From the NCBI GenBank assembly GCA_003168355.1, contig PMSQ01000147.1, forward strand, positions 1-33,509: 33,509 bases of DNA, written 5' to 3'. The translations under genes and the position numbers were made by a program. The notes beneath the pieces were generated by a model. The model worked only from the letters and a program-made list of their open reading frames with translations. It did not search any database and was not told where the DNA came from. Within the stretch, counting starts at the first letter, position 1, and each line of letters opens with the position of its first letter. Below are positions 4,107 through 31,337 of the stretch, one piece after another. The DNA is from Acidobacteriaceae bacterium (lineage in GTDB: Bacteria > Acidobacteriota > Terriglobia > Terriglobales > Acidobacteriaceae).

Positions 4107-4109
4107 CCG

Positions 4110-6445: not shown

Positions 6446-7071
6446 GTAACATTCACCAGACCGGCCCGAATAGCGTAGACGACCAGCTCGGCAGTTTTGT
6501 GAATGCCGAGCGTGTTCATGATGTTGGTGCGATGAACGGCAATTGTGTTGGCGCTGAGTTCGAGCACCGCGGCAATTTCCCTGTTCGATTTACCATCCAC
6601 AATCATCTTTAAGACTTCAAGCTCACGCGGCGTCAGCCCACTGCTGCGCTCACCTTTGAGAGCTGACTGCTGCTCCACTTGGGGATCGAAAATGGTTTCT
6701 CCCGCGGCCACGCGCCTCACGGCCGGCCCCAGTTCCAAGTTCATCGCGTTCTTCAGAATGTAGCCCTTGGCGCCGGCCTCGATCGCCTGCCGCACCCAGG
6801 TATTTTCCGAATGCATGCTGAGCATCAGCACGGCGGTTTCGGGCAAGTCCTCAAGAATTTGCCGGGTTGCATCAAGGCCGTTCATCTTGGGCAAAGCACA
6901 ATCCATGATCACGACTTGCGGCTTCAACTCGCGCGCCAGCTTCGCGGCTTCTTCACCATCGCCTGCTTCACCCACCACGACCATATCCGGTTCATCCTCC
7001 AGCATGCGCCGGAAGCCGCGCCGTACCAAGCGATGGTCATCGACCAACAATACCGTGATCTTCTTTGTCAT
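6442..7071 (-). CDS. NarL/FixJ-family response regulator
   Basis: The 209-residue protein has a CheY-like receiver (about 1-125) with the acidic pair Asp11-Asp12, the phospho-acceptor Asp57 in VIMDCALP, Ser85 in LMLSMH and Lys107 in KGYILKNA. A LuxR-type helix-turn-helix follows (about 145-205: LTPRELEVLKMI, then SNREIAAVLELSANTIAVHRTNI). It should be phosphorylated by the histidine kinase encoded 15 bp upstream and act as a DNA-binding activator or repressor. The stop overlaps the GTG start of the CRTAC1 gene. Targets are unknown; autoregulation of the operon is the simplest guess. Confidence 0.93.
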   Translation of the reverse strand: MTKKITVLLVDDHRLVRRGFRRMLEDEPDMVVVGEAGDGEEAAKLARELKPQVVIMDCALPKMNGLDATRQILEDLPETAVLMLSMHSENTWVRQAIEAGAKGYILKNAMNLELGPAVRRVAAGETIFDPQVEQQSALKGERSSGLTPRELEVLKMIVDGKSNREIAAVLELSANTIAVHRTNIMNTLGIHKTAELVVYAIRAGLVNVT

Positions 7072-13870: not shown

Positions 13871-16608
<2,738 letters not shown>

Positions 16609-16690
16609 AATTATCGAATAAGAATGAGTATAAACGATCGAGAACAGTGTCCGCCGAAAATCTTTCTTTGCGTGGAGGCCGGGCAAGCTC

Positions 16691-16709
16691 TGCTGTATAG
16701 TTCTATGCT
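16691..16709 (+). promoter_or_regulatory. Putative promoter with degenerate GntR operator, first chitinase
   Basis: TGCTGTATAGTT (16691-16702) matches TGCTATATAGCA at nine of twelve positions. One base later comes TATGCT (16704-16709), a fair -10. The arrangement is the same as in front of the third GH18 gene, where a clean operator ends one base before TATACT. The corresponding -35 position (16681-16686, GGGCAA) is poor. Downstream, both leaders share CCTGGAGG-like and TTTGCGAAT/TTTACGAAT segments up to the ribosome-binding site. Operator function here is the least certain of the five sites. Confidence 0.45.
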
Positions 16710-16754
16710 TGCCGGTCAATCCTTTGCGAATCACGAATCCTGGAGGCGCTCGCT

Positions 16755-18086
16755 ATGTCGAAACATTTTTGGCCGCACCTACTGCGAGTGGCTTTGACGA
16801 GTTTGTTGGCCCTCGTTGCATGTGTCTCTCAGTCATTCGGGCACGCACGTCATCATGGCAAAATTCTCGGGGGCTACTTCGAAGAATGGGGCATCAATTA
16901 CGCCGGCTACAACATCGCGGATTTGCAGAAGAATGGCGTGGCCGATGAACTGACACACCTGATCTATGCCTTCGGCAATGTAACCCCGACTTCTCCACCG
17001 GCGTGCGCCATTGCGGATCCCGTTGCCGCGTACCAGAATTCGGCGCTTCCCAGTGTGAGCGGCAAACTCTACACCGCGCCACTCTATGGAAATTTTGGCG
17101 CGATCCAACAACTCAAGGGGCTTCATCCCAATCTGAAAGTGTTGATCTCTTTGGGGGGGCAAGCGGGCAACGTTGCGGGATTTGTGACCGCCGCACGCAG
17201 CCCGGCCGGCCGCGCCGCGCTCGCCTCTTCGTGCATCGACATGTTTGTTAAGGGCAACATCGCTGCAGGCGTTGCAGCTCCCGGCTTGTTTGACGGCTTC
17301 AATGTCGATTGGGAGTTTCCGGGCGCGGCGGACACGCAGAACTTCACCGCTCTGCTGAAAGAGTTCCGCATGCAACTCAACGCTTTGGCGAAAACGACCG
17401 GAAAGAAATATGTCCTGACGTTCGATTCGCCCGCAAGCCCGAAGAAGTATGTCAACATCGATCTTAAAGCCGCCGCTGCGGTAGTGGACTTCCTCACCAT
17501 CGACGGTTACGACTACGCCGGAGCAGACGACAAACAAACCAATGAGGCGTCTTCGCTGTATGACAGCGCCGCCGACCCTATGTATGCCGACGCCCGCTAC
17601 ATCGATGCGACCGTAAGAGCGTATCTCAAGGCCGGTGTGCCGGCGGCAAAATACACCATGGGGTTGCCGTTGTATGCCGTCGGCTGGACGGGCGTCGCGA
17701 ACGTGAACCATGGCTTGTACCACAATGCAACCGGCGCTTCTCCCGTTCTCTTGGCTGATGGATCGGGTCTGTGCCCGAAACCGGACAAAACCGCAGCCTC
17801 GCCCGGCTGCGACACCGTGTTGACCGCGGGATTTGCTACCTACTCGACCATTGAGAACCTCACGAATAAATACGGTTTCACCGCCTGGTACGACTCGGCA
17901 AGAGTTGGAGCAACACTCTACAATCCAGCCCGCGGAACCTTCTATACCTACGATAATCCTGCTGCGGTAGCGGCGAAGACGGCCTACATCAAGAAAAATA
18001 AGCTTGGCGGCGCCTATGTGTGGGCGCTGAATGACGACGATGCCAACGCATCTCTGACGAAAGCGATTGCGGCGGGCCTCAAGTAA
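16755..18086 (+). CDS. Exported GH18 chitinase-like protein 1 (catalytic motif variant)
   Basis: The 443-residue protein has a signal peptide (about 1-29) and a single GH18 TIM barrel (PF00704). The barrel starts at KILGGYFEEWG and ends at GGAYVWALNDDD. The strand-3 motif reads ISLGG. The catalytic strand-4 motif reads DGFNVDWEFP: the acid Glu187, Asp185 and Asp180 are present, but the middle Asp of DxxDxDxE is Asn183. The MxYD motif is DGYDY (250-254). GGAGG at 16742-16746 supports the start. GH18 enzymes cleave beta-1,4-GlcNAc linkages by substrate-assisted catalysis; the variant suggests changed rate, pH optimum or product, not necessarily inactivity. It is a close paralogue of the gene at 21787 and is divergent from the perR-katG operon. 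Confidence 0.9.
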   Translation: MSKHFWPHLLRVALTSLLALVACVSQSFGHARHHGKILGGYFEEWGINYAGYNIADLQKNGVADELTHLIYAFGNVTPTSPPACAIADPVAAYQNSALPSVSGKLYTAPLYGNFGAIQQLKGLHPNLKVLISLGGQAGNVAGFVTAARSPAGRAALASSCIDMFVKGNIAAGVAAPGLFDGFNVDWEFPGAADTQNFTALLKEFRMQLNALAKTTGKKYVLTFDSPASPKKYVNIDLKAAAAVVDFLTIDGYDYAGADDKQTNEASSLYDSAADPMYADARYIDATVRAYLKAGVPAAKYTMGLPLYAVGWTGVANVNHGLYHNATGASPVLLADGSGLCPKPDKTAASPGCDTVLTAGFATYSTIENLTNKYGFTAWYDSARVGATLYNPARGTFYTYDNPAAVAAKTAYIKKNKLGGAYVWALNDDDANASLTKAIAAGLK

Positions 18087-18370
18087 TCGAGACCACCGTA
18101 TCCCTGAGCGTCTTTGTGAGAAAAAAACATTGTCCGTCGGTCTGCCCGGCCGACCTGCATAGCTTCAGCCCATCAAGTTCGTTTTTCGTAACAAGACTGC
18201 GCGAGTATCGCCGTTTTTCCACAGTCTGAGAACAAAGCTGCCCCCGCCTTGCACGCCCCACGCTTTCTACGGGTTAGCAGAGCGCGGACTAATTTGTAGT
18301 TCGGATCACGCAACAAGAAAAAAGTTCTTTGACTCGGCCACTTAGGGGGGAGTACGGTATTCCGCACGAG
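18087..18370. other. Part of a 510-bp intergenic region, no gene recognised
   Basis: This is the first part of the gap between the first and second GH18 genes. Inverted repeat GTCGG/CCGAC (18136-18140, 18150-18154) is present without a following T-tract. TTGACT at 18329-18334 could be a -35 element, but no good -10 lies 16-18 bases downstream. No ORF with family resemblance and no recognised riboswitch was found. The operator and the leader hairpin that follow are listed separately. Confidence 0.4.
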
Positions 18371-18382
18371 TGCTATAGAGCA
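18371..18382. promoter_or_regulatory. Putative GntR operator upstream of the second chitinase
   Basis: TGCTATAGAGCA matches the TGCTATATAGCA palindrome at eleven of twelve positions, with both TGCT and AGCA ends intact. It lies 215 bases before the ATG of the multimodular GH18 gene, much further than at the other two chitinase genes, implying a long leader or a second promoter. I cannot place a confident -35/-10 pair around it. Confidence 0.55.
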
Positions 18383-18500
18383 GTTTGGGATATGGATCCG
18401 TTGGAAACTTGCTTCTTCCATATCTGCAAACGTCGCGATCAGTAAGCCGCTGCTCCGTGAATCTTCCATGAGTGCCGTATATAGCCAAACCTCGCGACAC

Positions 18501-18533
18501 GGAGTCCGACGCGACCGCCGCGGGACTCCTTTT
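18501..18533 (+). terminator. Leader hairpin with T-run, attenuator-like
   Basis: GGAGTCC (18501-18507) pairs with GGACTCC (18523-18529) around a 15-base GC-rich loop that can itself pair GCG with CGC. TTTT follows (18530-18533). This has the form of a weak intrinsic terminator placed between the upstream operator and the second chitinase ATG at 18597. It may stop read-through, attenuate the leader or protect the mRNA 5' end. The short T-run makes the terminator reading uncertain. Confidence 0.4.
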
Positions 18534-18596
18534 CCCTCAACCACCCAACCGCGGGCGGACCGCCCTGGCACGCGTCCCCCGAATCAAGGAGCAACA

Positions 18597-21581
18597 ATGA
18601 AGCGTGCATTTCTTTTCTCCTCCCTGCTCTGCGTCTTTATCGCCGTTCCGCTGTTGGCGCAAGCGTCAGTCACTCTGAGCCCTTCGAGCTACAATTTTGG
18701 GAGCACCGCGGTCGGCACAGGCACCGCGTGGGTTACCTTCACACTGTCCAACAGCGGCAGCTCTGCCGTGAGCATCAGTAACGTCACCGTCAGCGGCCCA
18801 TTCGTCGTATCCAGCAATTGTGGATCCTCAGTGGCCGCCAACGGCTCGTGTCCAATCTACGTGTATTTCTACCCAACCACCTCAGGCGCGGCCAGCGGCA
18901 CACTGACAGTGACCGACAGCGGCACGCAGACATCTGCTCTCACTGGAACTGGCGGAAGCGGCGGTAGTTGTACGATCACACCCAACGCGCCAACTGGTTT
19001 GGCGGCGTCTGGCACAACCAGCTCCAGTACCAACCTGAGTTGGACCGCCGTTACTCCTCCCACGAACTGCACCATCAGCAGCTACACGGTACTGAAGAAC
19101 GGAACCTCGATTGGCACCGCAACTGGCACGACGTTCGCGGTGACCGGCCTTTCCGCTTCGACCTCTTACAGTTTCACGGTTGAGGCGACGGACAGCAACG
19201 GCACGTCGGGCCCAAGTTCAGCGGTAAATGTGACCACGCTGGCGAATAGTTGCACGACCAAGCCAAGCGCCCCAACCGGATTAGCGGCGTCTGGCACAAC
19301 CAGCTCCGGCACAAATCTGAGTTGGACTGCAGACACTCCTCCCAGTGGCTGCACGATCAGCAGCTACACCGTGCTGCAGAACGGAACCTCGATCGGCACC
19401 GCAACCGGCACTACATTCGCCGTGAGCGGGCTGGCAGCTTCAACGTCGTACAGCTTTACGGTGGAAGCAACGGATGCAGCCGGCACTTCCTCAGCGAGCA
19501 CGGCAGTGAATGTAACAACTCTGGCAGGGGGTGGCGGCTCATGCGCAACGGCGTGGAGCGCAACTCAGGTTTACACGCAAGGCATGACGGCGAGCCAGAA
19601 CGGAGAGAACTACGTCGCCAATTTCTGGACGCAAAACCAGAGTCCGGCGACCAACAGCGGCGGAGCTGGCAGCGGCGAACCTTGGACTGCGACTGGTTCC
19701 TGTTCGACCTGCTCGGCTGCGCCAGCTACTCCGACTGGACTGGCAGCATCCGGAACGACGAGCTCCAGCACAAACCTGAATTGGAATACGGTTACTCCCC
19801 CCGCGGGATGCACTGTGAGCTACAAGGTCCTGCAGAGTTCAACCGTAATCGCAAGCCCGACCACAACCTCCGAAACGGTAACTGGTCTTAATCCGTCGAC
19901 GACCTACAGTTTCAGCGTAGAAGCGACGGATTCGGCTGGCACTTCGGCTGCAAGTTCGGCGATCAACGTAACGACTTCAGCCAGCACGTGCACCACCAAG
20001 CCGAGCACTCCAACGGGATTGGCGGCATCGGGCACGACCGATTCCAGCACAAACCTGAGTTGGAACGCAGTCAGTCCTCCGAGCGGATGCAGTATCAGTT
20101 ATTCGATCACGGGAGGGCCTTCGACACTCACCACCAGCTCAACCTCCGATACCGAGGGTGGACTGACGCCTTCAACCAGTTACACCTTCTCGCTGACGGC
20201 CACCGATTTTGCCGGTTCATCGTCAGCAACGACGGTGACTGTGTCGACATCCGCACTCAGCACTCTCTTTATGGGTGGATGGTATGAAGAGTGGGGCACC
20301 TACTATGCCAACTATAACGTTGCGCAATTGCAGTCGAATGGCGTAGCCGGCGTGCTCACGCATCTCATCTATGCCTTTGCCAAGCCGGTCGCGAACGGCA
20401 GCAACGTGAATTGCGAGCTCGCCGACACCTACGCCGACTATCAGAAGGTCGTGTCGCAGGTGCCTGGCGCTACTCCAGCTACGGCTCCGCTGCAAGGGAA
20501 CTTCGGTGCGCTTGTACAACTCAAGCAGCTCAATCCTAACCTGAAGGTGTTGATCTCCATCGGCGGATGGAATCCACCCACTTACAACACGCTCTTCGAT
20601 CAGGCAGCCAGCACACAGGCGCAACGTCAGGCCTTTGTCGGCTCCTGCATCAACCTGTTCATCCAGGGCAATATTGCCTCGGGTGTTTCCACCGGCACTC
20701 TCTTCGATGGCATCGATCTCGACTGGGAGTTTCCGAACGCAAACGACACGGCCAACTTCACCGCTTTGTTGACCGAGTTCCGCAACGAACTGAATACGCT
20801 GACGGGAACCACCGGCAGAACGTATCAGTTATTGGCCGATCTGGCTGCCGGCCCATCAACCCCGGGCGCGGCTGCGGACTCGGGCAACGATGGTGGTTAT
20901 GACACCATCAATATCTCTGCGGTCGCGGCGGAGTTGAATTACATGAATGTCGATGGCTATAACTACGCCGGAGACTGGTCCAACGCCACCAATGACGCGT
21001 CTGCATTGTTCGACGAACCCGCCAACCCACTGTACGGAAAACCGGCTGACGATATCGACGCCACCGTGCAGTACTACATGTCGCAGGGTGCGCCGGCAGC
21101 CAAGTACACCATGGGCTTCCCGCTCTATGGTGCTGGCTGGGCCGGAGGCCTAACCTCAACGAACGGCGGCATGTACCAGAACGCAACCGGAGTCACGGAT
21201 CCGACCGGAGCCACCACTACAAATGGAACTTCGCCGGTTCCCAATGCCAACGGTGTTGGAAACTGCCCGACGGGTGAAAACCAGTCCAGTCCGACTACAG
21301 GATGCGACGTCCTGTTGACCGACGGCCTGGCTACTTACGGGACCATCGTCAACCTTCTGAGCAACGGGTTCACGCCCAGCTACGACTCCACACGCTGCGC
21401 GGCCCGTATGTTCAACGCAACCACCAGCACCGCATTCAGCTATGACAATGCTACGTCGGTGCAGTGCAAGGTAAACTTCATCAAATCCAACGGCTTCGGC
21501 GGGGGCTACGTTTGGGCGTTGAAAGACGACGACCCGAATGGAGACCTGACCAAAGCCATCGCGAACGATCTCAATCCATAG
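18597..21581 (+). CDS. Multimodular exported GH18 chitinase with SPD-2/Hydin-like, FN3 and CBM5/12-like modules
   Basis: The 994-residue enzyme starts at ATG 18597 with AAGGAG at 18586-18591. Modules in order: signal peptide (1-23); choice-of-anchor-D/ASPM-SPD-2-Hydin-like beta-sandwich (about 24-118); fibronectin III 1 (129-214) and 2 (224-308); a carbohydrate-binding module of CBM5/12 type (about 316-370, with ATAWSATQVYTQGMTAS and EPWTATGSC aromatics); FN3 3 (376-461) and 4 (468-552); then a C-terminal GH18 barrel (557-994). The catalytic motif is complete, DGIDLDWEF, with Asp704, Asp707, Asp709 and acid Glu711. The MxYD motif is changed to DGYNY (786-790). The binding module and linkers suit attack on insoluble chitin. 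A strong terminator follows. It sits between two single-domain paralogues and is probably the main endo- or processive chitinase of the locus. Confidence 0.92.
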   Translation: MKRAFLFSSLLCVFIAVPLLAQASVTLSPSSYNFGSTAVGTGTAWVTFTLSNSGSSAVSISNVTVSGPFVVSSNCGSSVAANGSCPIYVYFYPTTSGAASGTLTVTDSGTQTSALTGTGGSGGSCTITPNAPTGLAASGTTSSSTNLSWTAVTPPTNCTISSYTVLKNGTSIGTATGTTFAVTGLSASTSYSFTVEATDSNGTSGPSSAVNVTTLANSCTTKPSAPTGLAASGTTSSGTNLSWTADTPPSGCTISSYTVLQNGTSIGTATGTTFAVSGLAASTSYSFTVEATDAAGTSSASTAVNVTTLAGGGGSCATAWSATQVYTQGMTASQNGENYVANFWTQNQSPATNSGGAGSGEPWTATGSCSTCSAAPATPTGLAASGTTSSSTNLNWNTVTPPAGCTVSYKVLQSSTVIASPTTTSETVTGLNPSTTYSFSVEATDSAGTSAASSAINVTTSASTCTTKPSTPTGLAASGTTDSSTNLSWNAVSPPSGCSISYSITGGPSTLTTSSTSDTEGGLTPSTSYTFSLTATDFAGSSSATTVTVSTSALSTLFMGGWYEEWGTYYANYNVAQLQSNGVAGVLTHLIYAFAKPVANGSNVNCELADTYADYQKVVSQVPGATPATAPLQGNFGALVQLKQLNPNLKVLISIGGWNPPTYNTLFDQAASTQAQRQAFVGSCINLFIQGNIASGVSTGTLFDGIDLDWEFPNANDTANFTALLTEFRNELNTLTGTTGRTYQLLADLAAGPSTPGAAADSGNDGGYDTINISAVAAELNYMNVDGYNYAGDWSNATNDASALFDEPANPLYGKPADDIDATVQYYMSQGAPAAKYTMGFPLYGAGWAGGLTSTNGGMYQNATGVTDPTGATTTNGTSPVPNANGVGNCPTGENQSSPTTGCDVLLTDGLATYGTIVNLLSNGFTPSYDSTRCAARMFNATTSTAFSYDNATSVQCKVNFIKSNGFGGGYVWALKDDDPNGDLTKAIANDLNP
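18981..20252 (+). repeat. Four fibronectin type III repeats within the chitinase gene
   Basis: Four FN3 units lie at 18981-19238, 19266-19520, 19722-19979 and 19998-20252. Each contains P-T-G-L-A-A-S-G-T-T near its start and a Y-S/T-F-S/T-V/L-E/T-A-T-D strand near its end. The DNA of units 1 and 2 is nearly identical over long stretches, which points to recent internal duplication or gene conversion. The CBM-like module is inserted between units 2 and 3. Confidence 0.85.
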
Positions 21582-21603
21582 AGATCTGACAACCGCGAAC
21601 TTC

Positions 21604-21640
21604 AAGGCAGGCTGGCTAACTAGTCAGCCTGCCTTTTCAT
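21604..21640 (+). terminator. Intrinsic terminator after the second chitinase
   Basis: AAGGCAGGCTGGCTA (21604-21618) pairs with TAGTCAGCCTGCCTT (21621-21635), including one G-T pair, followed by TTCATTTT. The stem is long and GC-rich. It separates the second chitinase from the third gene and its own promoter. Confidence 0.85.
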
Positions 21641-21717
21641 TTTGTCCTGGGTGCCATTTGCGCGGGGCTCGGTTTCCTTGTGCCGCCAATAGTGGGGGCC
21701 GCTCAACAAATATGGTA

Positions 21718-21746
21718 TTGCAAGTTCCGCTATATAGCTCTATACT
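21718..21746 (+). promoter_or_regulatory. Promoter with GntR operator in the spacer, third chitinase
   Basis: TTGCAA (21718-21723), a 17-base spacer and TATACT (21741-21746) form a good sigma70-type promoter. The spacer holds a perfect 10-bp palindrome GCTATATAGC (21729-21738). A protein bound there would block RNA polymerase, the classic repressor arrangement. The ATG lies 40 bases after the -10, with GGAGG at 21773-21777. Confidence 0.75.
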
Positions 21747-21786
21747 CCGGCGGTTCGTACTTTACGAATTCTGGAGGCGTTTTGCC

Positions 21787-23124
21787 ATGTCAATCCATTT
21801 CCTGCCACGCCTGCTCCGAGTGGCTTTGCTGACTTTGTTGGCCCTCGTCGCATGCATCTCCCCCTCATTCGCACAAAACCACAACCAAGGCAAGATTCTC
21901 GGAGGATACTTCGAAGAGTGGAGTATCTACTACGCCGGCTACAACATTGCAAACCTGCAACAGAATGGTGTGGCCGATAAACTGACGCACCTCATCTACG
22001 CCTTTGGCAATGTGGCGACAACTCCGGCGCCAGCATGCGCCATTGCTGATACCTGGGCCGACTATCAATCTCCTTATCTGCCCAGCGTGAGCGGTATCGC
22101 CTACCCCGGGCCGCTCTATGGAAATTTTGCGGCTATCCAACAACTCAAGGCACTCCATCCCAAACTGAAAGTGCTGATGTCTCTGGGAGGGGCGTCTGCT
22201 GCCAACACTGCGGCCTTCGTCAGCGCCGCCAGCACGACTGCCGGACGCCAATCCCTTGCCGCTTCTTGCATCGATATGTTTGTCAACGGCAACATCGCCG
22301 CGGGCATCACCGCCCCCGGCTTGTTTGACGGCTTCAATATCGATTGGGAATTCCCCACAGCGACCGACACGCAGAACTTTACAGCCCTGCTAGCAGAATT
22401 CCGCAACCAACTGAACGCCTTGAGCAAAACGACAGGGAAGCAATACACTCTGTCGTTCGACGGGCCCGCGGGCGCGCAGAACTATGTCAACATCGATCTT
22501 CGGAAAGCCTCCGAGCAAGTGGATTTCATCACCATCGATGGCTACAACTATTCCGGCTCATGGGTCACGCAGACCAATGACGCATCGCCACTATTCGATT
22601 CCCGCCAGGACCCGTTGTTTGGCCAAAAGCTCGACATCGACGACACCGTAAACGCCTATCTCAAGGCCGGGGTACCGCCTTCCAAGTACACAATGGGTTT
22701 GCCTTTGTATGGCGCCGGCTGGACTGGCGTCTCCAACGTGAACCACGGCTTGTACCAGAACTCAACTGCCCCTTCTCCAGTTCTCTTGGCTAACGGAACA
22801 GGTTTGTGTACGGACCTCAGCGGAAATACGCCCGGTTGCGACACCCTGCTGACTCCCGGACTCTTGACCTATTCGACGCTCTCCACCCTCACTTCCAACG
22901 GGTACAAGAATTACTTCGATCCGCGAAGAATTGCAGTGTCGCTGTACGAGCCGGCTAGCGGGACCTTCTATACCTATGACGATCCCTTTACGGCTTTTCT
23001 GAAGATGATCTATATAAACCTGAAGGTTCCAGGAGGTCTTGGCGGCTCCTACGTGTGGGCGCTGAAAGACGATGATGCAAATGGAACCATGGTGAAAACC
23101 ATGGCCGCAGGCCTGGGCCGCTAG
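21787..23124 (+). CDS. Exported GH18 chitinase-like protein 3 (catalytic motif variant)
   Basis: The 445-residue protein has a signal peptide (1-30, ending PSFAQ) and a single GH18 barrel from KILGGYFEEW to GGSYVWALKDDD. The catalytic motif is DGFNIDWEF: acid Glu188, Asp186 and Asp181 are kept, but the middle Asp is Asn184. The MxYD site reads DGYNY (251-255), so Asp is also replaced there by Asn254. It is collinear with the protein encoded at 16755, with the same signal-peptide pattern and the same leader, and clearly arose by duplication. The start at 21787 is chosen because GGAGG (21773-21777) lies nine bases upstream; an in-frame upstream extension would run through the promoter. It may be a weak hydrolase, an exo-acting enzyme or a chitin-binding lectin-like protein. 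Confidence 0.9.
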   Translation: MSIHFLPRLLRVALLTLLALVACISPSFAQNHNQGKILGGYFEEWSIYYAGYNIANLQQNGVADKLTHLIYAFGNVATTPAPACAIADTWADYQSPYLPSVSGIAYPGPLYGNFAAIQQLKALHPKLKVLMSLGGASAANTAAFVSAASTTAGRQSLAASCIDMFVNGNIAAGITAPGLFDGFNIDWEFPTATDTQNFTALLAEFRNQLNALSKTTGKQYTLSFDGPAGAQNYVNIDLRKASEQVDFITIDGYNYSGSWVTQTNDASPLFDSRQDPLFGQKLDIDDTVNAYLKAGVPPSKYTMGLPLYGAGWTGVSNVNHGLYQNSTAPSPVLLANGTGLCTDLSGNTPGCDTLLTPGLLTYSTLSTLTSNGYKNYFDPRRIAVSLYEPASGTFYTYDDPFTAFLKMIYINLKVPGGLGGSYVWALKDDDANGTMVKTMAAGLGR

Positions 23125-23151
23125 TCCATAGAGACCTTGGCACCTAGAATG

Positions 23152-23199
23152 AAGAACTGAAGGCGGGCTGACTAAGAAAGTCAGTCCCCTTCAGTTCTT
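23152..23199. terminator. Bidirectional terminator between convergent genes
   Basis: AAGAACTGAAGG (23152-23163) pairs with CCTTCAGTTCTT (23188-23199). An inner stem of GACT/AGTC closes around AAGAA. It lies between the ends of the third chitinase and the hexosaminidase genes, so it can serve both strands. Part of its core (AAGGC-GGGCTG-CTA) resembles the terminator after the second chitinase. Confidence 0.8.
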
Positions 23200-23212
23200 G
23201 TGTCAACGACAG

Positions 23213-25285
23213 TTATTTGTTAGGCGCCTCGGGAACCGCGTTGACTAGATCACGCAAGGGCTTGATAACTGTGAAGCGGACCAGCGCTTGCGGTTTCTCG
23301 GTTTCGTCCAAGACAGCCAGTTTCTCAGCCCTCCAACCCGCAGCCGCAGGCAGTCCGGATGAGAGATAAGAAACCGCTTCGAGACCCATCGTGCCCAGTA
23401 CGGTGAGCTGCTGAGCTCGCGGTTCGGCCTGGGCAAGGAGGGGCGAGCCAGCCATCAAGTGCAGGAGTCCAGGTTCTGCCGCGATCCAAGCTTTGAAGTT
23501 GGTAGTAAGTTCGGCTTCTTGCTGCAATCGGGTCGCGGAATCTTGCAGATAGGCGCTCATGAGCAGCTCAAAATTGTGGCGCGATGGTGGATCGGGGGGA
23601 AGAGCGTCAACGAATTGATTGAGTGGCGTGAGTTGATTCGGATGCTGAATGTGTGCGCGCTCGTTGAAAGTAACAGGGGCGAGAATGGAGGCCAGGATAT
23701 GCAGCGGACCGATCTGTTGGGTTCTGGCCAACTGGCGCAGGCTCGCTGCTTTCTGAGAGATGTGCGTGAGACCTAAAGCTTCCAGTCGCAGCGACTCGAC
23801 GGTAAGTCGACGATACATGTCGTCTACATTGTCTACGTCACGCGGCGACCAGAGTCGCTCGGCGATGGCTGCGGCACGGGGCCAGATGCGCGAATCGATG
23901 TCTTGTGAGGCGGTCTGCTCAGTCCACATACAGGCCTCTCCGCCGAGGATGCGTGCCTGCTCCTCAGGGTTAAGTCCGCTTGCTTGGGGCAACGGATCCA
24001 CCATGTAGTGTGCTGCGGCAGTGCTCATAAGATTCAAGTAGTAACCAGCGGACAGAATGCTGCTATATCCATTTCTGGCTCCGGTGGCGAGTGAATCGAA
24101 GCCGCGCCAGCTCTGAACGACGATGTCCTTGGGCAGGTCGGGATTGAGAATTTCGTCCCAGCCGATCACATGTTTGCCATGCTTCTCAAGAATTTTGAGA
24201 AGCCGCCGGTTGAAATGGTTTTGTAGCGCGGCTGTGTCTCGGAGATTGTGTTCGCGCATGAAGGCCCGGATACGCGGATTGGCCTTCCACTGTACGCCGT
24301 TGTTCTCGTCACCTCCGATGTGCATGAAGTGATCAGGAAAGATGGCCGCCATTTCTCCAATAAAAGTATCGAGAAATTTATAAGTGCTTTCTCGCGTAGG
24401 ATCCATCACCGGATCGAAGACACCGAACTCCCGCTCGATGTGGAAGGGTCCGGGCGCGCTGGCGAGATCGGGATATCCGACGAACCATGCACTGGTGTGC
24501 CCCGGAATGTCGAACTCGGGTACGACACGAATGCCGCGGTCGCGCGCATAGGCAACAATTTCGCGGGCTTGCTCCTGGGTATAGAAAAGTCCGTCAGAGC
24601 CCAACCCAGCGAGTCTGGGGAAAGCTCGACTCTCGATGCGGAAGCCCTGGTCTTCACTAAGATGCCAGTGGAAGACGTTAAGCTTAACAGCGGCCATCCC
24701 GTCGAGAGTGCGTCTGATAACGTCGACCGGCATGAAGTGACGTCCGCAGTCGATCATGAGGCCGCGCCAGCGAAAACGTGGGGTGTCGCGAATTGATACT
24801 GCAGGAACAAAATAACCAGTCGCATCAGACTGCACCAGCTGTTGCAGAGTTTCGAGACCGCGCATGGCTCCGACCACAGTAGCGGCGTGGAGGCCCACAC
24901 CCAAGGGCGTGACTTCAAGAGAGTAGGACTCGTCTTCGTCGGCCGACTGGATGGTTTCTCCAGGTCCGTCGACACTGACCACCAGCGCCCCGGATGTGCT
25001 GGAGGCTGGCGGAGATGTAGGTATCGAAATGCTAGTCTGAGTTTTTAGGCGATCAAGGCTGCGCGCTATGGCGGCGTCGAGGCGAGCGTCCCGATAGCCG
25101 TCCGTGATGGCAGCAAAGGAGGGTGTGAGGGTGAGCCGTCCTTCCCGCGTGGAAAGATGCGCCGGTTGCGGCATCAGGGTGTTGACGAATCTTGGAGCCG
25201 GGCTTTGCGGCGGCGTTGCCTGATTCGGTGTGCCGGATAATGCTATAAAACTCGCGAGAATCATTGCGAATATTAGATGCATCAT
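23213..25285 (-). CDS. Exported GH20 beta-N-acetylhexosaminidase
   Basis: The 690-residue protein has a signal peptide (about 1-22), an N-terminal GH20b domain (about 35-165) and a GH20 TIM barrel (about 168-510). Catalytic Asp326-Glu327 lie in HIGGDENNG. Other markers are RWRGLMIDCGRHF, HWHLSEDQGFRIES, PEFDIPGHTSAW and GGEACMWTE. It removes terminal GlcNAc from chitooligosaccharides, which are the products of the GH18 enzymes. The C-terminal 180 residues form an additional helical region of unknown role. GAGAGG precedes the two adjacent ATGs; the second (25282) has the better spacing. It follows the GntR regulator by 25 bp on the same strand, so it is in the regulator's operon and should respond to the same operator. 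Confidence 0.94.
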   Translation of the reverse strand: MMHLIFAMILASFIALSGTPNQATPPQSPAPRFVNTLMPQPAHLSTREGRLTLTPSFAAITDGYRDARLDAAIARSLDRLKTQTSISIPTSPPASSTSGALVVSVDGPGETIQSADEDESYSLEVTPLGVGLHAATVVGAMRGLETLQQLVQSDATGYFVPAVSIRDTPRFRWRGLMIDCGRHFMPVDVIRRTLDGMAAVKLNVFHWHLSEDQGFRIESRAFPRLAGLGSDGLFYTQEQAREIVAYARDRGIRVVPEFDIPGHTSAWFVGYPDLASAPGPFHIEREFGVFDPVMDPTRESTYKFLDTFIGEMAAIFPDHFMHIGGDENNGVQWKANPRIRAFMREHNLRDTAALQNHFNRRLLKILEKHGKHVIGWDEILNPDLPKDIVVQSWRGFDSLATGARNGYSSILSAGYYLNLMSTAAAHYMVDPLPQASGLNPEEQARILGGEACMWTEQTASQDIDSRIWPRAAAIAERLWSPRDVDNVDDMYRRLTVESLRLEALGLTHISQKAASLRQLARTQQIGPLHILASILAPVTFNERAHIQHPNQLTPLNQFVDALPPDPPSRHNFELLMSAYLQDSATRLQQEAELTTNFKAWIAAEPGLLHLMAGSPLLAQAEPRAQQLTVLGTMGLEAVSYLSSGLPAAAGWRAEKLAVLDETEKPQALVRFTVIKPLRDLVNAVPEAPNK

Positions 25286-25310
25286 GGCCTCTCTTCGCGG
25301 CTACACGGTC

Positions 25311-26033
25311 CTAGCGCAGGCGTCGGATAAACAGGGTGTGTCGTTCTGAGCGGTAGAAACCAACTCCGTAAATCGTAGCTTTGCCCTTGACCGAATAGAT
25401 GGTCTGGCGAATGCGCAGCAGAGACGCGCCCGGAGGTACACTAAGCATCTCCGCAATGCTGGCGTCCGCTGATGTGGCATCGACTTCTTCGTCTGCGTAT
25501 GCCAATTTCGTCGCATAGTCATGCTCGAGAATCGCAAACAAGGAACTTCTTCCTAGAGCGGCCGATGCCAGGCCGGAAAAATCGGCCGCGGGCAAGTAGC
25601 AGGTTTCCAGCGCGAACGGCTCTTCCCCTGTAAGCCGGAGTCGTTGGATTTTTAGCACTTGACTGGCTGCCGGCAGCCCAAGCCGGGCCGCAACTTCCGG
25701 CTCGCCCTCGATCACCTTTGCCACCAATACCCGGGAGCGCGGAGCCAAACCACGGCTCGACATTTGTTCTGTATAGCTCATCAACTTGTTAAAGTGGATT
25801 TTGGGCACGGCAACGAAGGTACCTGCACCGAGCCGGCGTTCGACGATTCCTTCGTGTTCCAGTCCGGCCAGGGCGTGGCGAGCCGTCATGAGGCTCACTT
25901 TGTGGGTCTTGGCCAGTTCGCGCTCCGACGCAACCGCATCCCCCGGTTTCAGCCTAGCGGAAGCGATGCGGTCGCGGATCTCGCCTTGGATTCTTTTGTA
26001 GGCGGGTGTCCTGTTGCGATGATTTCCAGACAT
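25311..26033 (-). CDS. GntR-family regulator, HutC/DasR-like with UTRA domain
   Basis: The 240-residue protein starts at ATG 26033 (MSGNHRNRTPAYKRIQ). The N-terminal GntR winged helix covers about 9-78 (GDAVASERELAKTHKVSLMT, then ARHALAGLEHEGIVERRLGAGTF). A UTRA effector domain follows (about 95-235), marked by LKIQRLRLTGEEPFALETCYLP and ASLLRIRQTIYS. This is the class of DasR, YvoA/NagR and NagQ, which bind phosphorylated amino sugars. Its gene precedes a GH20 hexosaminidase and its promoter carries the palindrome shared with the chitinase and receptor promoters. The most economical reading is a repressor of the whole chitin locus that also represses itself. The effector is inferred to be a GlcNAc-derived phosphosugar; a chitooligosaccharide is possible. 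Confidence 0.9.
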   Translation of the reverse strand: MSGNHRNRTPAYKRIQGEIRDRIASARLKPGDAVASERELAKTHKVSLMTARHALAGLEHEGIVERRLGAGTFVAVPKIHFNKLMSYTEQMSSRGLAPRSRVLVAKVIEGEPEVAARLGLPAASQVLKIQRLRLTGEEPFALETCYLPAADFSGLASAALGRSSLFAILEHDYATKLAYADEEVDATSADASIAEMLSVPPGASLLRIRQTIYSVKGKATIYGVGFYRSERHTLFIRRLR

Positions 26034-26126
26034 GTTTATTGTTTCCAGACTCTCCTGGACGGCGAGCCGGCTAGGCAAGGCCCCAGGATACGTCAAGCCC
26101 CGGGTGCGGTCACTTGCAGCGCCCTA

Positions 26127-26158
26127 TGCTATATAGCTTATTGTGACTTTGATGTAAA
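26127..26158 (-). promoter_or_regulatory. Autoregulated promoter of the GntR-hexosaminidase operon
   Basis: On the minus strand, TTTACA (plus-strand 26153-26158), 17 bases and TATATA (26130-26135) form a promoter. The -10 is embedded in the palindrome GCTATATAGC (26128-26137; eleven of twelve matches to TGCTATATAGCA over 26127-26138). Binding of the regulator would cover the -10. The ATG at 26033 is roughly 95 bases downstream. Confidence 0.7.
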
Positions 26159-26420
26159 GCTCAATTCTTGAAAGGGATGGCATTGATGGTGTTTTCATGA
26201 GGACTACCTTACAGAAAAAGGCACCTCCCGTACCGGATGTTGGGTGTGTGCAACCGGATTTGAGCGTCCGCGAGTATTTCATAGCAATTGACGCAATTCC
26301 CTCCCCATTCAGAGAGCGTTTTGACCTACAACCTCTTCTCTCTCGATCCTCTTCCGACGAAGGAGGATGAATCGCCCGGCCCTATCCAACAATTTTCTCT
26401 GGCCGATTGCTTTTTTCCTC
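26159..26420. other. Divergent intergenic region, no gene recognised
   Basis: This stretch separates the two operator-bearing promoters of the GntR operon and the receptor gene. It is moderately AT-rich and contains no ORF with family resemblance. Apart from general purine/pyrimidine runs near 26330-26365, I see no clear repeat or RNA structure. Confidence 0.4.
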
Positions 26421-26451
26421 TTGACTACGAACCATCGCGTGCTATATAGCA
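26421..26451 (+). promoter_or_regulatory. Promoter with perfect GntR operator, TonB receptor gene
   Basis: TTGACT (26421-26426) is a strong -35. Sixteen bases later TATATA (26443-26448) can serve as -10. It lies inside the perfect 12-bp palindrome TGCTATATAGCA (26440-26451), the best operator copy in the window. The receptor start at 26520 follows after a leader of about 65 bases. Confidence 0.72.
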
Positions 26452-26519
26452 TAGTGCGTTTGGATTAGTGGCTCATTTGTAACGCCCATTTGAGGAAGTC
26501 GGTTTGAGGAGGTCCTGTG

Positions 26520-29500
26520 ATGGCGAAATTGACGTGGAACATGCGCAGAGGCTCAACCAGAGATGATTGCGGAGTTATGCAGAGCCAGTCTTCTTCATTT
26601 CTAGCGGTCTGCCTAATAATCCTAAGCCTGTCAGCTGCAGGTTTGGGACAAGAGTTGGCGGCAACTCTCACAGGCACGGTAAGGGATGCCAGCGGAGCCG
26701 TTGTGGCTGGCGCGACGATGGTGGTTCACAGCGAGGAAACCGGAGCGGACATCCGCTCCGTGACCACCAGCGACACCGGCAGTTTCAATATTACGAATCT
26801 TCCGGCAGGCCGGTACACGGTCACCGTCAAGAACAGTGGATTTGAAACGTTCGTGGCTAAAGACGTAATTCTCAACGTCGCGGAAAAACACACACTCGAT
26901 GTGGGATTGGTAACCGGAAGTGCTAGCGAAACCGTCCAGGTGACGGCGGAAAACGTCGCGATTCAAACAACCACAGCGGAGGAATCGGGGACCGTCACAG
27001 GCGAGCAGGTTCGAGAGCTGGCGCTGAACAACCGCAACTTCGAACAGCTCATCCTGTTGCAACCCGGTGTGGCCAATCAATTGCCGGATAAAGTCGGTTT
27101 CGGTTTAGCGAACAATACCTCGATTTCGGTGAACGGAGCGCGCACAGGAGCTAACAATTACACGGTGGACGGGGCTGACATCAACGACAGCGGTTCGAAC
27201 GGAACCTTGCTGAACACGCCGAGCATCGATGCCATCCAGGAGTTCACGCTGGAGCGCAGCAACTACGATGCGGCGTTCGGACGCAGTGGCGGCGGTCAAA
27301 TCGTAGTTGCAACCAAGTCGGGAACGAATACGTGGCATGGCAGCGCTTACGAATTCAACCGCAACAATTTTTATAATGCGAATACGTTTGGCGGCCGGGC
27401 CTCTATTGCGGCCGGTCAGCCGCTTTCGTCCGCAGACACCGTCCCAATTGAGCGCTACAACGACTTTGGGTTCACCCTCGGTGGCCCGCTTTTTATCCCG
27501 AAGCTTTACCACCCTCAGAAGGACAAGACATTCTTTTTCTGGTCGGAGGAATGGCGTAAAGCAAACACGCCGGGCCTGAATATTATCAATGTGCCCACCC
27601 CCGCGGAGCTTGCCGGCTCTTTCACGAGCCCGGTTAGCGTTGCTCCCGCGGGATGTGTGACCACCGCTGGCGGCGTATCCACCATTAGCCCGTCCTGCTA
27701 CAGCAAGAATGCCACCGCGTATCTAAACGCCTTTATGGTGAACAACCCGCCGAATACTTCCACGGGACAGCTAGTTACCAACTACAGCCAGTTAAACAAT
27801 TTTCGTCAGGATATTATACGCATCGATCAGAACGTAGGCGACAGAGTCCGCGTCTTCGGGCGCTACATGGAAGATGTTGTCCCGCAGAATGAGCCGTTCT
27901 CGCTCTGGGGGGGCGGGAACTACCCTGGAGTAGAAACTACATCGGTGAATGCGCCCGGTCGCAATCTGGTCGTGAACGCGAGCGCCACGATCTCGCCGAA
28001 GGTGGTGAACGAAATCGAATATGTGGACGCGTGGGGTGCGATCAATTCCACTCTCAGCGGAGTCGCAAACTCTCCGGCTTTTCTCAGCCAACTCACCAAC
28101 AATACCAAGTACGCGGATCCGAACGGTCGAGCACCTGATGTATCCTTCACGGGTGGGACGCAGGCGGTGCCAGCACTTACTGGTTTGGGTAACGGAAGCG
28201 CGCCCTACTTTGAGCGCAACATCGACAAGAACATATTCGACAATCTTTCCATCCAGCATGGGAATCACACCATCCGCGCCGGCTTTACTGCGATGTGGAT
28301 GCAGAAGACGGAAAACGCCTCCTCCGGTTTCGCGACATTCAGTTTCAGTCCCACGAACACCAACCCGGCATTCGCCAACTTCCTGCTGGGGCAAGCGGAC
28401 AGCTATACGCAACCGAGCAAGGACACGATCCCGCACCTTAGATATGTGAACTTCGAAGTCTACGTCCAGGATGACTGGAAGATCACTCCCCGCCTGACAT
28501 TGAACGCCGGCGTTCGATGGAGCTACTTCCCATCGCCCACTGACAGCAACAACACTTTGACTAACTTCAATCCTGTTTTGTTCAATCCGGCTAATACTGC
28601 GGTCATCGATCCCATCTCTGGAAATATGACCGGAGTGACAGCCAGCGGCAACCCGATAAGCGCAGCAACCTATGCCAATGGACTTATCTTTCCTAGTGGC
28701 ACAGCTTGCACCACGGCGCAAGCTGTCGCTCCGCAGGTATCTTGCTCACCCTTCGGCAGCCGCGTCAATGCCAACTCCAACAACAATTGGGGACCGCGGC
28801 TGGGTCTGGCCTGGGATCCGCGCGGAGATGGCAAGATGGCCGTCCGCGCCGGTTTCGGCATCTTCTATGACCGCACGCTGAATGGTATCTGGGAGCAGAA
28901 TGCCTTTACCGACCCGCCACTGGTCCAAACTGTGACTGTGAACAACAACGGCAACAGCAACCTGAATTTGTTCGATAACCCTCTTGGTGGGCAACTGGCG
29001 GGCCCTCCGCTCGGCCCAAACGGCTTAATCGCAACTGGCACGCCAACCTTCAAGGTGCCGAGCTACATGGACTACAACCTTTCCTTGCAGCAGGAAATCT
29101 TGCCCGGCACTGTCCTCGAAATAGGCTATGTGGGTACAAGGGGCACGCATCTGCTGGGTGACGTGGATATCAATCAACCCACGCTGGCCGCACGTTTGGC
29201 AAGTCCCGGATCCGACGTGAACGCTATACGTCCATTTGCCGGGTACGGCGTAATTACCGACCGCAATCCCGTCTTCACCAGCAACTACAATTCCCTGCAA
29301 GCTTCGTTGAACCACCGCTTCAGCCGGGGCCTAACTTTGCAACTTGGCTACACCTGGTCCAGGCTACTCACGACGAGCCCCGAGGACCGGGCTTTGGCGA
29401 CATACAATACCTACAACCTGGGGCAGAGCTACGGGCCCTCTACCCTGAACACTCCCCAGATGTTCATCGCCAGCTACGTATACGATCTGCCGTTCTACAG

Positions 29501-30059
29501 GAACCAGAACGGCTTCGTCGGCAAAGTCCTCGGCGGGTGGGAAATCTCCGGCATCACCACCATCCAGACAGGTCAGTCACTTTCGATTATCCAAGCTTCG
29601 GACCCCTTCGGCGCGGTCACCGTGCCGACTTCGGAAGGCGGCTGCACCATCTCGGCCACCACTACTTCTTGTCCACTCTATCCCGGCGGTCTGGGCATGA
29701 CGCGGTCCGGCAGCACAGTTCAGATCCGTGCCGATCAGATTGGCAATGCCAGCGGTCCGAAAACCGCGGCGGAATTCTTCAATACGGCGGCCTTCACCGA
29801 CGCAGTGGGCCACTTCGGCACATCCCCAGTGGGCGCAATTTATGGACCCGGATTGCAGGTCTGGGACATGTCGCTCATCAAGAACATAAGATTCGTCGAA
29901 CGAGTCGCCTTGCAACTCCGTCTCGAGACTTTCAATACGTTCAATCACGGCAACCCCAGTTCGATCGACACAGGCGTGGACGACGGGGCAAGCTTCGGTA
30001 CCGTCAACGGATGGCACGATCCACGCAATGTTCAGATTGGCGCTAAGGTTAGCTTTTAG
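26520..30059 (+). CDS. Oar-like TonB-dependent outer-membrane receptor
   Basis: The protein has about 1179 residues. After a signal sequence (hydrophobic core about 28-43, ending GLGQ) comes a carboxypeptidase-regulatory-like domain (TLTGTVRDASGAVVAGATMV to about residue 140). Then a plug domain (about 150-300, with ISVNGARTGANNYTVDGADI and the GGQIVVATKSGTNTWHGS signature) leads into a large Oar-type beta-barrel ending NVQIGAKVSF, with the terminal Phe needed for barrel insertion. Such receptors replace SusC in acidobacteria and import oligosaccharides with TonB-ExbBD energy. GAGGAGGT (26506-26513) favours ATG 26520 over the GTG at 26517. The operator in its promoter ties it to the chitinase genes, so chitooligosaccharides are the expected ligand; no SusD-like partner is present. 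Confidence 0.92.
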   Translation: MAKLTWNMRRGSTRDDCGVMQSQSSSFLAVCLIILSLSAAGLGQELAATLTGTVRDASGAVVAGATMVVHSEETGADIRSVTTSDTGSFNITNLPAGRYTVTVKNSGFETFVAKDVILNVAEKHTLDVGLVTGSASETVQVTAENVAIQTTTAEESGTVTGEQVRELALNNRNFEQLILLQPGVANQLPDKVGFGLANNTSISVNGARTGANNYTVDGADINDSGSNGTLLNTPSIDAIQEFTLERSNYDAAFGRSGGGQIVVATKSGTNTWHGSAYEFNRNNFYNANTFGGRASIAAGQPLSSADTVPIERYNDFGFTLGGPLFIPKLYHPQKDKTFFFWSEEWRKANTPGLNIINVPTPAELAGSFTSPVSVAPAGCVTTAGGVSTISPSCYSKNATAYLNAFMVNNPPNTSTGQLVTNYSQLNNFRQDIIRIDQNVGDRVRVFGRYMEDVVPQNEPFSLWGGGNYPGVETTSVNAPGRNLVVNASATISPKVVNEIEYVDAWGAINSTLSGVANSPAFLSQLTNNTKYADPNGRAPDVSFTGGTQAVPALTGLGNGSAPYFERNIDKNIFDNLSIQHGNHTIRAGFTAMWMQKTENASSGFATFSFSPTNTNPAFANFLLGQADSYTQPSKDTIPHLRYVNFEVYVQDDWKITPRLTLNAGVRWSYFPSPTDSNNTLTNFNPVLFNPANTAVIDPISGNMTGVTASGNPISAATYANGLIFPSGTACTTAQAVAPQVSCSPFGSRVNANSNNNWGPRLGLAWDPRGDGKMAVRAGFGIFYDRTLNGIWEQNAFTDPPLVQTVTVNNNGNSNLNLFDNPLGGQLAGPPLGPNGLIATGTPTFKVPSYMDYNLSLQQEILPGTVLEIGYVGTRGTHLLGDVDINQPTLAARLASPGSDVNAIRPFAGYGVITDRNPVFTSNYNSLQASLNHRFSRGLTLQLGYTWSRLLTTSPEDRALATYNTYNLGQSYGPSTLNTPQMFIASYVYDLPFYRNQNGFVGKVLGGWEISGITTIQTGQSLSIIQASDPFGAVTVPTSEGGCTISATTTSCPLYPGGLGMTRSGSTVQIRADQIGNASGPKTAAEFFNTAAFTDAVGHFGTSPVGAIYGPGLQVWDMSLIKNIRFVERVALQLRLETFNTFNHGNPSSIDTGVDDGASFGTVNGWHDPRNVQIGAKVSF

Positions 30060-30152: not shown

Positions 30153-31337
30153 TCAGCGAATCTCGTTCCGCTTGATCGCCTCGGCCCTGCGTTTCTCCTG
30201 GATACCAAGCGCAATCTTTTGTTCGTTCGCTGCTGCGGCAGTCTCTCCTAGCTGCCGCAACACACTGCCGAGAACAAAGTGGGCCTCGAAGTAGTTGGGA
30301 TCAATCCCGATGGCTTTGCGAAGTGGCTCAACCGCCGCTTGGGGATGTTGCAGCGCCAGCTCAGTCTTCCCCAGACCAAACAGTGCCTCGGCATAACGAG
30401 GATTCGCCGCCAGGGCTGCGCGAAAATGAGGCTCGGCCTCTGCGGGCCGCGATTTATCCAGGAGGATTAGACCGAGAATACAGTTTGAGACGGGATCGCT
30501 TGGAAAGCGTTGTAGTTCTGCACGAAATTCTTTCTCCGCAACTTCGTTCTCACCCTCTCGCCAATATTCAAAACCCAGGCCGGAATGTACGCCCATGAAG
30601 TTGGTATCTGCCTGCTCCGCCGCTTGATATTCTTTAATGGCTTCCGGTCGATTCGACATCTCATCATAAGCCGTGCCCATCATGATGTGAGCGGATGCTG
30701 AGTTTGGACTCACCTGCATGATTCGAGCGAAGACGTCAGTCAGCGCCTTGTAATCCTTCATCCGCAGGTACGCCTTGCCGAGCATATCGAGGGTCTCCAG
30801 ATCGGATGGCTCGACGTGATTCGCGCGTTCCAGGTACGCGGCAGCTTCCGGATAACGATCCAGAGCAAAGAGCGAGAGGCCGGCCAAGTCGAGAATCTGA
30901 AAATCGTTTGGATATTTTGCCGCCATCGGCCGCAGCAACCGCCACGCCGGCAAATAGCGTTGGGCTTTAAAGTAAGCGATGGCCAGATTGCGTTTTGTCG
31001 AAGGGTCGTCAGGGTGAAATTTTAGAGCGTCTTCGTACAACGGGATCGCCTCGGCAGGTCGCCCCATCCGGGCCAGCACAATTCCCAGATTGTTTAGTGC
31101 GGCGAGTGAATGCGGATCGATTCTCAATGCGCTCCTCAGAGCTTGCGCTGCAGCCGCGTTGTCGCCTTTGTGCATCGCTTCCGCAGCATGTTCGAGGTAG
31201 GCGTGCAGCTGTATTTCTTCGCCATTCGGGGGCGGTGTGTCGGTCGGCACTCGCGTCTGAGCCACCACACAATGGGCGATCAGTAGCCACATTGCATAGA
31301 TTCTCGCGATCTGCCGGGCGCGGATTTGCACTCGCAT
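30153..31337 (-). CDS. Exported tetratricopeptide-repeat protein
   Basis: The 394-residue protein has a signal peptide (about 1-26, ending CVVAQ) and about nine to ten TPR units from residue 43 to the C-terminus. Examples are AAQALRSALRIDPHSLAALN, EAIPLYEDALKFHPDDPST and AAVEPLRKAIGIDPNYFEAH. It presumably acts as a periplasmic protein-interaction scaffold. Single TPR genes of this type are frequent beside Oar-like receptors and CRTAC1 proteins in acidobacteria, but no function is established. It is convergent with the receptor gene. It has no copy of the chitin operator in its upstream region that I could find, so it is probably not part of that regulon. Confidence 0.87.
   Translation of the reverse strand: MRVQIRARQIARIYAMWLLIAHCVVAQTRVPTDTPPPNGEEIQLHAYLEHAAEAMHKGDNAAAAQALRSALRIDPHSLAALNNLGIVLARMGRPAEAIPLYEDALKFHPDDPSTKRNLAIAYFKAQRYLPAWRLLRPMAAKYPNDFQILDLAGLSLFALDRYPEAAAYLERANHVEPSDLETLDMLGKAYLRMKDYKALTDVFARIMQVSPNSASAHIMMGTAYDEMSNRPEAIKEYQAAEQADTNFMGVHSGLGFEYWREGENEVAEKEFRAELQRFPSDPVSNCILGLILLDKSRPAEAEPHFRAALAANPRYAEALFGLGKTELALQHPQAAVEPLRKAIGIDPNYFEAHFVLGSVLRQLGETAAAANEQKIALGIQEKRRAEAIKRNEIR

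Follow-up and report, generated by a model that had tools for sequence, protein, structure and literature searches.

Three GH18 chitinase genes (GH18a, GH18b and GH18c), a gntR-GH20 operon and a gene for a TonB-dependent outer-membrane receptor lie close together in a 33,509-nucleotide stretch of an Acidobacteriaceae genome (contig PMSQ01000147.1 of assembly GCA_003168355.1; hereafter the window), and the question raised by this locus is whether one regulator, acting at one DNA site, controls them all. A first-pass annotation had pointed to five copies of a 12-bp palindrome, TGCTATATAGCA, and to a candidate chitin regulon under GntR. We consider it very probable that the window's HutC-type GntR protein has TGCTATATAGCA as its operator and is an amino-sugar-responsive repressor with altered specificity; its binding, repression and effector are what we infer from sequence comparison. 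In the best reading of the data, it would control the chitinase, GH20 and TonB-receptor genes of the window and, in relatives, a wider mix of uptake and amino-sugar genes.

A scan of the window recovered the five sites at the places and with the match counts first reported. The full 12/12 match stands before the receptor gene (26440-26451); TGCTATATAGCT before gntR and TGCTATAGAGCA before GH18b match at 11/12 positions, CGCTATATAGCT before GH18c at 10/12 with a perfect 10-bp core, and TGCTGTATAGTT before GH18a, the weakest of the five, at 9/12. Exact copies of the core, GCTATATAGC, are located at 21729, 26128 and 26441, compared with 0.00 occurrences in 100 shuffled windows. At up to 2 mismatches from the palindrome, four matches were found where 0.43 were expected, and only 1 of 100 shuffles reached four; at up to 3 mismatches there were nine against 5.5 expected, a number reached by 9 of 100 shuffles. 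Because this last enrichment is only mild, the site at 16691 is not significant alone and needs outside support. Such support comes from position: in a related locus (L032) the orthologous chitinase gene has an identical GCTGTATAGT at -62/-63. The GH18a orthologue of L119 also has a site, and that of L042 has none within 2 mismatches at the corresponding place. The other 3-mismatch matches of the window are at 25241 and 25767 (inside genes, dropped), 1058 and 33287. The gap from site to start codon is 65 bp for the receptor gene, 93 bp for gntR (ATG at 26033), 47 bp for GH18c, 52 bp for GH18a and about 214 bp for GH18b, measured from its likely real start at 18597; the proposed location of the sites, upstream of the receptor gene, the gntR-GH20 operon and the three GH18 genes, is thus correct.

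The distribution of the motif was then considered over the source assembly (5,300,178 bases in 213 contigs, 92% complete). GCTATATAGC occurs in three exact copies, all in the window's 33-kb contig, before regulator, receptor and chitinase genes; the exact word is restricted to this one locus rather than scattered over the genome. With one mismatch allowed, the motif is rarer than its backwards control word (102/105 vs 262/244). The form found at 18372, GCTATAGAGC, has three further exact places in the genome, all inside script-predicted open reading frames (ORFs). Among the matches listed, eight extra near-matching places were found in seven stretches (L071-L077), seven inside predicted ORFs and one intergenic (GCTATACAGC). 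No site with up to 2 mismatches was found in the stretches around the two weaker GH18 matches or around either of two GlmS-like SIS genes in the same genome. A single UTRA match was found in the genome, that of the window GntR, which is encoded among the sites and is the sole HutC-type regulator found. Five GH18 matches were found; the three strong ones lie in the window, and of the remaining pair one scores 46 bits and one 27 bits, the latter under the cut-off. No nagB match was over the cut-off. The regulator seems to govern here the outer half of chitin use, namely depolymerisation and import.

Conservation of the site was examined at loci picked by protein, not by DNA, which are related to each other and so are not independent trials. 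Of 150 relatives searched with the protein, 68 had matches at E <= 1e-15 and 36, own genome included, had a near-full-length match at >=50% identity. Besides the window's, there were 43 near-full-length places at this identity, 41 of them in the first 40 loci, one added later (L090) and one, in G075 (50%), left out. A scan of 84,980 species genomes provided 80 further loci, the best 80 of 125 relatives, 79 of which bear Acidobacteriota names (including Candidatus Sulfotelmatobacter) and one is labelled Betaproteobacteria. Together with L090 and the window this made 122 loci, 94 of them non-redundant, and 93 upstream regions were scored. GCTATATAGC was present upstream of the clade's gntR genes in exact form in 75/93 and with at most one mismatch in 84/93, compared with 0.02 and about 1.1, respectively, in first-order Markov simulated sequence; the motif is therefore retained at orthologous loci. 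Twenty HutC paralogues at 32-38% identity, of which 18 come from the same family as the window and 2 from the same class, served for comparison: CTATAKAG was found within 300 bp upstream of none of them (0/20), and the classical GTNTANAC upstream of 6/20. A chance origin of the core sites is ruled out by the shuffles, the genome location and the footprints in relatives; the 16691 site would fail if taken alone.

Presence of the regulator and presence of the core word also go together across genomes of the same genus, since 24/26 genomes with the regulator hold the word (a count that includes sites beside gntR itself) versus 7/19 without it (Mann-Whitney p = 5e-5). In a phylum-wide draw of 396 genomes, the only match at E <= 1e-50 was the window's own protein; compared with the 36/150 relatives, this indicates that the clade is common near the source genome and rare in an even draw. 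One class-level relative, G117, has seven exact GCTATATAGC copies, yet no GntR match at E <= 1e-15 came from it; in that lineage these copies are perhaps an unrelated motif.

Many intergenic regions hold more than one site. A second operator (GCTCTATAGC or GCTATAGAGC) is often 80-81 bp from the first, as in 12/84 adjacent pairs less than 350 bp apart, in loci that are related; another 12/84 pairs are spaced by 21-24 bp, and these counts are not independent. Such pairing, with spacings near 80 bp and near 21-24 bp, suggests looping, cooperative or side-by-side binding.

Recognition of DNA by this family is known from Bacillus subtilis NagR, in which Arg38 reads G-5, Arg48 reads G-4 and the Gly69 backbone touches G-7 (PMC4333415). 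NagR numbering was mapped onto the window protein through an alignment of the two. Arg38, Leu48 and Gly69 are present in 39/39 distinct clade sequences, window protein included, so the NagR/DasR trait of an Arg38 and an Arg48 reading two guanines is not found in the clade, which keeps Arg38 and has Leu at 48. Over the locus set Leu48 was counted in 95/95, a figure not used as evidence (one search pattern, VSLMTARHA, contains that Leu). In the paralogues, residue 48 is Arg (12/20) or Lys (8/20) and never Leu, and position 38 is never Arg. The dre core bound by NagR is TGGTCTAGACCA; compared with it, TGCTATATAGCA keeps G-5 and has C-4 in place of G-4. The altered operator base is the one whose reader was lost, because Arg48 reads G-4 in NagR and the clade has Leu48. 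The operator is accordingly of the type CT-N4-AG, with the same length and centre as GT-N4-AC and with G-4/C+4 inverted, and the GT-N4-AC core itself is not present in it.

The operator consensus of HutC proteins is NyGTMTAKACNy, and FarR, NagQ and SdhR are named as exceptions to it (PMC4494728). As these exceptions exist, the mismatch to GT-N4-AC does not exclude the window protein from HutC by architecture, and its domains, an N-terminal GntR winged helix-turn-helix (HTH) and a C-terminal UTRA domain, are those of HutC proteins (59.6 bits for PF00392 and 112.6 bits for PF07702, each above its cut-off). When 61 proteins were placed in one tree, all 39 members of the clade grouped on a single branch with 100/100 support; the best tree joins this clade to NagR and DasR, apart from the 20 paralogues, at 34/44 support only, NagR and DasR being long branches. 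The earlier idea of a diverged HutC-subfamily regulator is supported, and the change from G-4 to C-4, matched by that from Arg48 to Leu48, offers a mechanism for it.

The position of the sites in the promoters points to how such a protein might act. At the receptor gene, a -35 TTGACT (26421-26426) lies 16 bp before a TATATA inside the palindrome (18 bp before TATAGC); at gntR, a -35 TTTACA on the - strand (26158-26153) lies 17 bp before TATATA. At GH18c the palindrome is within the 17-bp spacer from TTGCAA (21718-21723) to TATACT (21741-21746). In related loci where the receptor is of the same type (TBDR-A) and sites are present, TTGAC stands 13-16 bp before the palindrome in 7/8; in the consensus of 111 site windows from loci of a second receptor type (TBDR-B), with both intergenic sides mixed, tgacca is still visible. 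Repression is the likely mode, since the sites cover the likely -10 or lie in the promoter spacer and a bound dimer would block RNA polymerase. The mechanism that we propose is the following. A GntR dimer would bind TGCTATATAGCA as a 12-bp palindrome, using a shifted DNA code in which Arg38 would still read G-5, and the replacement of Arg48 by Leu would go with that of G-4/C+4 by C-4/G+4. Bound over the -10 (gntR, TonB receptor) or in the -35/-10 spacer (GH18c, probably GH18a), it would block RNA polymerase, so that gntR would repress itself and the gntR-GH20 operon, the TonB receptor gene and the chitinase genes would be repressed. Glucosamine-6-phosphate (GlcN-6-P) or N-acetylglucosamine-6-phosphate (GlcNAc-6-P) made from imported chitin fragments would release GntR, as for NagR and DasR.

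The window protein retains the phosphate ligands of NagR (Thr90, Arg133, Arg135 and Ser165) together with Glu145 and Tyr228; in the clade, position 90 varies (T/S/N). The kept ligands argue for a phosphorylated or charged ligand and not for a particular sugar, because an Arg-x-Arg pair is also present in the paralogues.

Gene content was compared within 8 kb of gntR in the 94 loci, genes being named by clustering to tested representatives. A TonB receptor of either type is the commonest partner (66/94). nagB was found in 15/94 loci, and in 14/94 it directly follows gntR among the genes of that strand (its representative is over the TIGR00502 cut-off); glucokinase and sodium symporter genes were each found in 8/94, GH18 in 7/94, GH20 in 5/94, ROK in 4/94, GlmS-like SIS in 2/94 and a nagA cluster in 2/94, with one tested member over the nagA cut-off. 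At least one of nagB, SIS, GH18, GH20, ROK and nagA is present in 33/94. The general role therefore looks like amino-sugar uptake and use, as the TonB receptor is the commonest partner and nagB, kinases or a symporter are present in some loci. It was also observed that a cassette of TBDR-B, TPR and FG-GAP/UnbV-ASPIC genes is the commonest partner of the regulator (TBDR-B in 58/94; for example L033 2607-9217).

Orthologues of the window's chitinase genes carry sites as well, in most of the loci where such genes are present. For GH18b they are at the matching place in L031, L032 and L042; for GH18c in L032, L043 and L044, and shifted or weaker in L042. In G072, which belongs to another genus of the same family, sites stand upstream of 4/9 GH18 matches (8/9 of these matches being over cut-off), three with the exact core, on three contigs. 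The same genome has a site pair just upstream of a GlmS-like SIS gene, downstream of same-strand ROK-kinase and TBDR-A genes; the product of this SIS gene has the isomerase half only and is possibly a GlcN-6-P deaminase. The genes that bear operators thus belong to chitin and N-acetylglucosamine (GlcNAc) use both in the window (three GH18, GH20, TonB receptor) and in G072. The chitin regulon first suggested fits the window lineage and G072; over the 94 loci the role looks broader.

Several observations weigh against an amino-sugar repressor acting at this operator. Nine of the 93 upstream regions have no site within one mismatch, and only weaker matches. The backwards control word differs likewise between genomes with and without the regulator, more weakly (p = 0.036 vs 5e-5), and in the source genome GCTATATAGC is no more frequent than this word (3 and 3); the signal is where the core copies stand, not their number. 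The stretches around nagA (C177) and a GlmS-like SIS gene (C135) of the source genome have no site with up to 2 mismatches, so that the strong-site regulon appears to be one locus. A wider own-genome regulon was rejected: among the 1-mismatch matches listed, the extra places are mostly in ORFs, and the stretches around nagA, the SIS genes and the weaker GH18 matches have no site with up to 2 mismatches; weaker targets may still exist. In G072, 5/9 GH18 matches are without an upstream site. In the 94 loci, GH18 is near gntR in only 7, and 61/94 have none of the six markers within 8 kb, a figure that overstates marker absence because many contigs are short. Finally, the pocket differs from that of NagR by Arg211 to Gln, Glu222 to hydrophobic, Ser226 to Gly and Tyr167 to Phe, and the Arg-x-Arg pair is in 20/20 paralogues and so is not specific to amino sugars.

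These points bear unequally on the other explanations of the palindrome. Its -10 distance from good -35 elements at gntR and the receptor gene (TTTACA, TTGACT) is what would be seen if it were a mere promoter element, an extended -10 (TATATA/TATAGC) that is palindromic by chance. At GH18c, however, it occupies the spacer of a promoter that has its own -10, TATACT; a general promoter element would be expected in far more than three core copies genome-wide; both arms are kept in relatives, second copies occur elsewhere in the same intergenic regions, and 0/20 paralogue promoters have it, all of which makes this explanation scarcely credible. It is also very unlikely that the palindrome is the operator of some other regulator sharing the neighbourhood, for instance of LacI or ROK type. 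Chitin and GlcNAc genes are elsewhere under LacI-type NagR or ROK-type NagC (PMC5343134), and in G072 (L078) about 5 kb separate the sites from a gene of the LacI family; yet the site is upstream in 84/93 loci while the neighbours differ (gntR being common to the loci by construction), and the change from G-4 to C-4 matches a residue, 48, of GntR.

More serious, and still unlikely, is the proposal that GntR binds the site in response to a different ligand, or as an activator, chitin genes being a local recruitment and the main job being the TBDR-B/TPR/FG-GAP cassette. The high frequency of TBDR-B, with TPR in 34 and FG-GAP/UnbV in 39 loci, the scarcity of GH18 near gntR and the sugar-contact residues that differ from NagR all speak for it. 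Against it stand the 33 loci with an amino-sugar or chitin marker nearby, the sites found in trans before chitinase genes of G072, and the -10 or spacer positions, which argue for repression. We therefore retain the reading of TGCTATATAGCA as the operator of an amino-sugar-responsive GntR repressor.

This regulator can be placed among those already described. By sequence, the best match of the window protein in the PDB is NagR (YvoA), the B. subtilis GntR/HutC repressor of GlcNAc use, which acts at dre-site operators. The two share HTH-GntR and UTRA domains, Arg38, Gly69, the phosphate-binding residues, a 12-bp palindrome length and amino-sugar target genes; unlike NagR, the clade has Leu48, C-4 and its own branch (with the join to NagR/DasR at 34/44), its targets in the window are chitinases and a TonB receptor, and several sugar-contact residues are changed. 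DasR of Streptomyces coelicolor is likewise a HutC repressor of GlcNAc-related genes, with GlcN-6-P among its effectors (PMC4918961); set beside it, the window regulator has strong sites at one locus in the source genome. NagQ, a GntR protein of the HutC subfamily in Proteobacteria, also regulates GlcNAc genes, sometimes with chitin genes (PMC5343134), but it reads direct repeats, TGGTATT (PMC4494728), whereas the window site is a palindrome without GT...AC. The NagR of Xanthomonas and Shewanella, which in Xanthomonas controls TonB-dependent receptors and a GlcNAc kinase, is of the LacI family, a different protein family from that of the window GntR, and the name is all that is shared; in Proteobacteria, the genes for GlcNAc and chitin are served by NagQ, this NagR and NagC (PMC5343134). 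In Acidobacteria, GH18 and GH20 genes and chitin use have been described, in an article whose main text does not have the word GntR (PMC6252331). In the open-licence literature, no account of the regulon was found among the matches listed for the 12-mer, the 10-mer, the 8-bp core and Acidobacteria chitin, the 12-mer itself giving no match.

Features of the window are collected below, together with examples of paired operators in related loci.

Table. Genes and predicted operators of the window, and operator pairs of three related loci
Feature	Coordinates	Strand	Remarks
Weak operator TGCTGTATAGTT, predicted	16691..16702	+	GH18a promoter region, between Fur-family gene and GH18a; 3 mismatches
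GH18 chitinase GH18a, 443 aa	16755..18086	+	PF00704 199 bits
Operator TGCTATAGAGCA, predicted	18371..18382	+	Upstream of GH18b; 1 mismatch; GCTATAGAGC kept in L031, L032, L042
Large GH18 chitinase GH18b with fn3 domains	18468..21581	+	PF00704 191 bits, fn3 114 bits
Operator CGCTATATAGCT, predicted	21728..21739	+	Exact 10-bp core; core unchanged in L032, with 1 mismatch in both L043 and L044
GH18 chitinase GH18c	21787..23124	+	PF00704 198 bits; likely real start 21787 within ORF 21658-23124
GH20 beta-N-acetylhexosaminidase	23213..25285	-	Second gene of gntR operon, 25 bp after gntR; PF00728 318 bits
GntR/HutC-family regulator, 240 aa	25311..26033	-	GntR HTH and UTRA; ORF 25311-26096
Operator TGCTATATAGCT, predicted	26127..26138	+	Over likely -10 region of gntR; kept in relatives
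Operator TGCTATATAGCA, predicted	26440..26451	+	Over likely -10 region of TonB receptor gene
TonB-dependent outer-membrane receptor, TBDR-A type	26517..30059	+	PF25183, PF13620, PF07715
TPR protein	30153..31337	-	TPR families; related TPR protein (TPR-A) beside TBDR-A in several related loci
80-81-bp operator pairs, gntR-receptor intergenic	L033 9461/9541; L035 1677/1758; L036 916/997		

The likely real start of GH18b used above was judged from sequence, and the CBM_5_12 match of this protein is weak (22.1 bits, under the family cut-off of 26.2). The window's TBDR-A receptor is probably an importer, with chito-oligosaccharides or GlcNAc as its predicted substrate. Divergent from GH18a are a Fur-family regulator gene and a catalase-peroxidase-like gene (13871-16734), and the weak operator at 16691 lies in the shared intergenic region. 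Farther away, genes for a type III polyketide synthase-like protein, an FAD-dependent oxidoreductase and a YceI protein stand in a row (1922-4718), perhaps a small biosynthetic cluster, and a gene for an FG-GAP/UnbV-ASPIC protein, the domain type also found in the TBDR-B cassettes, adjoins a response-regulator gene (4742-7071).

Taken over the clade, we think it rather probable that a HutC lineage of Acidobacteriota inverted one operator base pair, from GT...AC to CT...AG, with the exchange of Arg48 for Leu and no change at Arg38. The lineage would in this way have gained an operator of its own, insulated from the HutC paralogues present in many relatives, and a clade-wide amino-sugar and chitin regulon around TonB receptors. 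If this is true, the operator would be a search word with which genes for amino-sugar and chitin use could be predicted in many uncultured acidobacteria, and the clade would offer a clean natural case of changed transcription-factor recognition, with one residue, one base pair, many relatives, and paralogues as controls.

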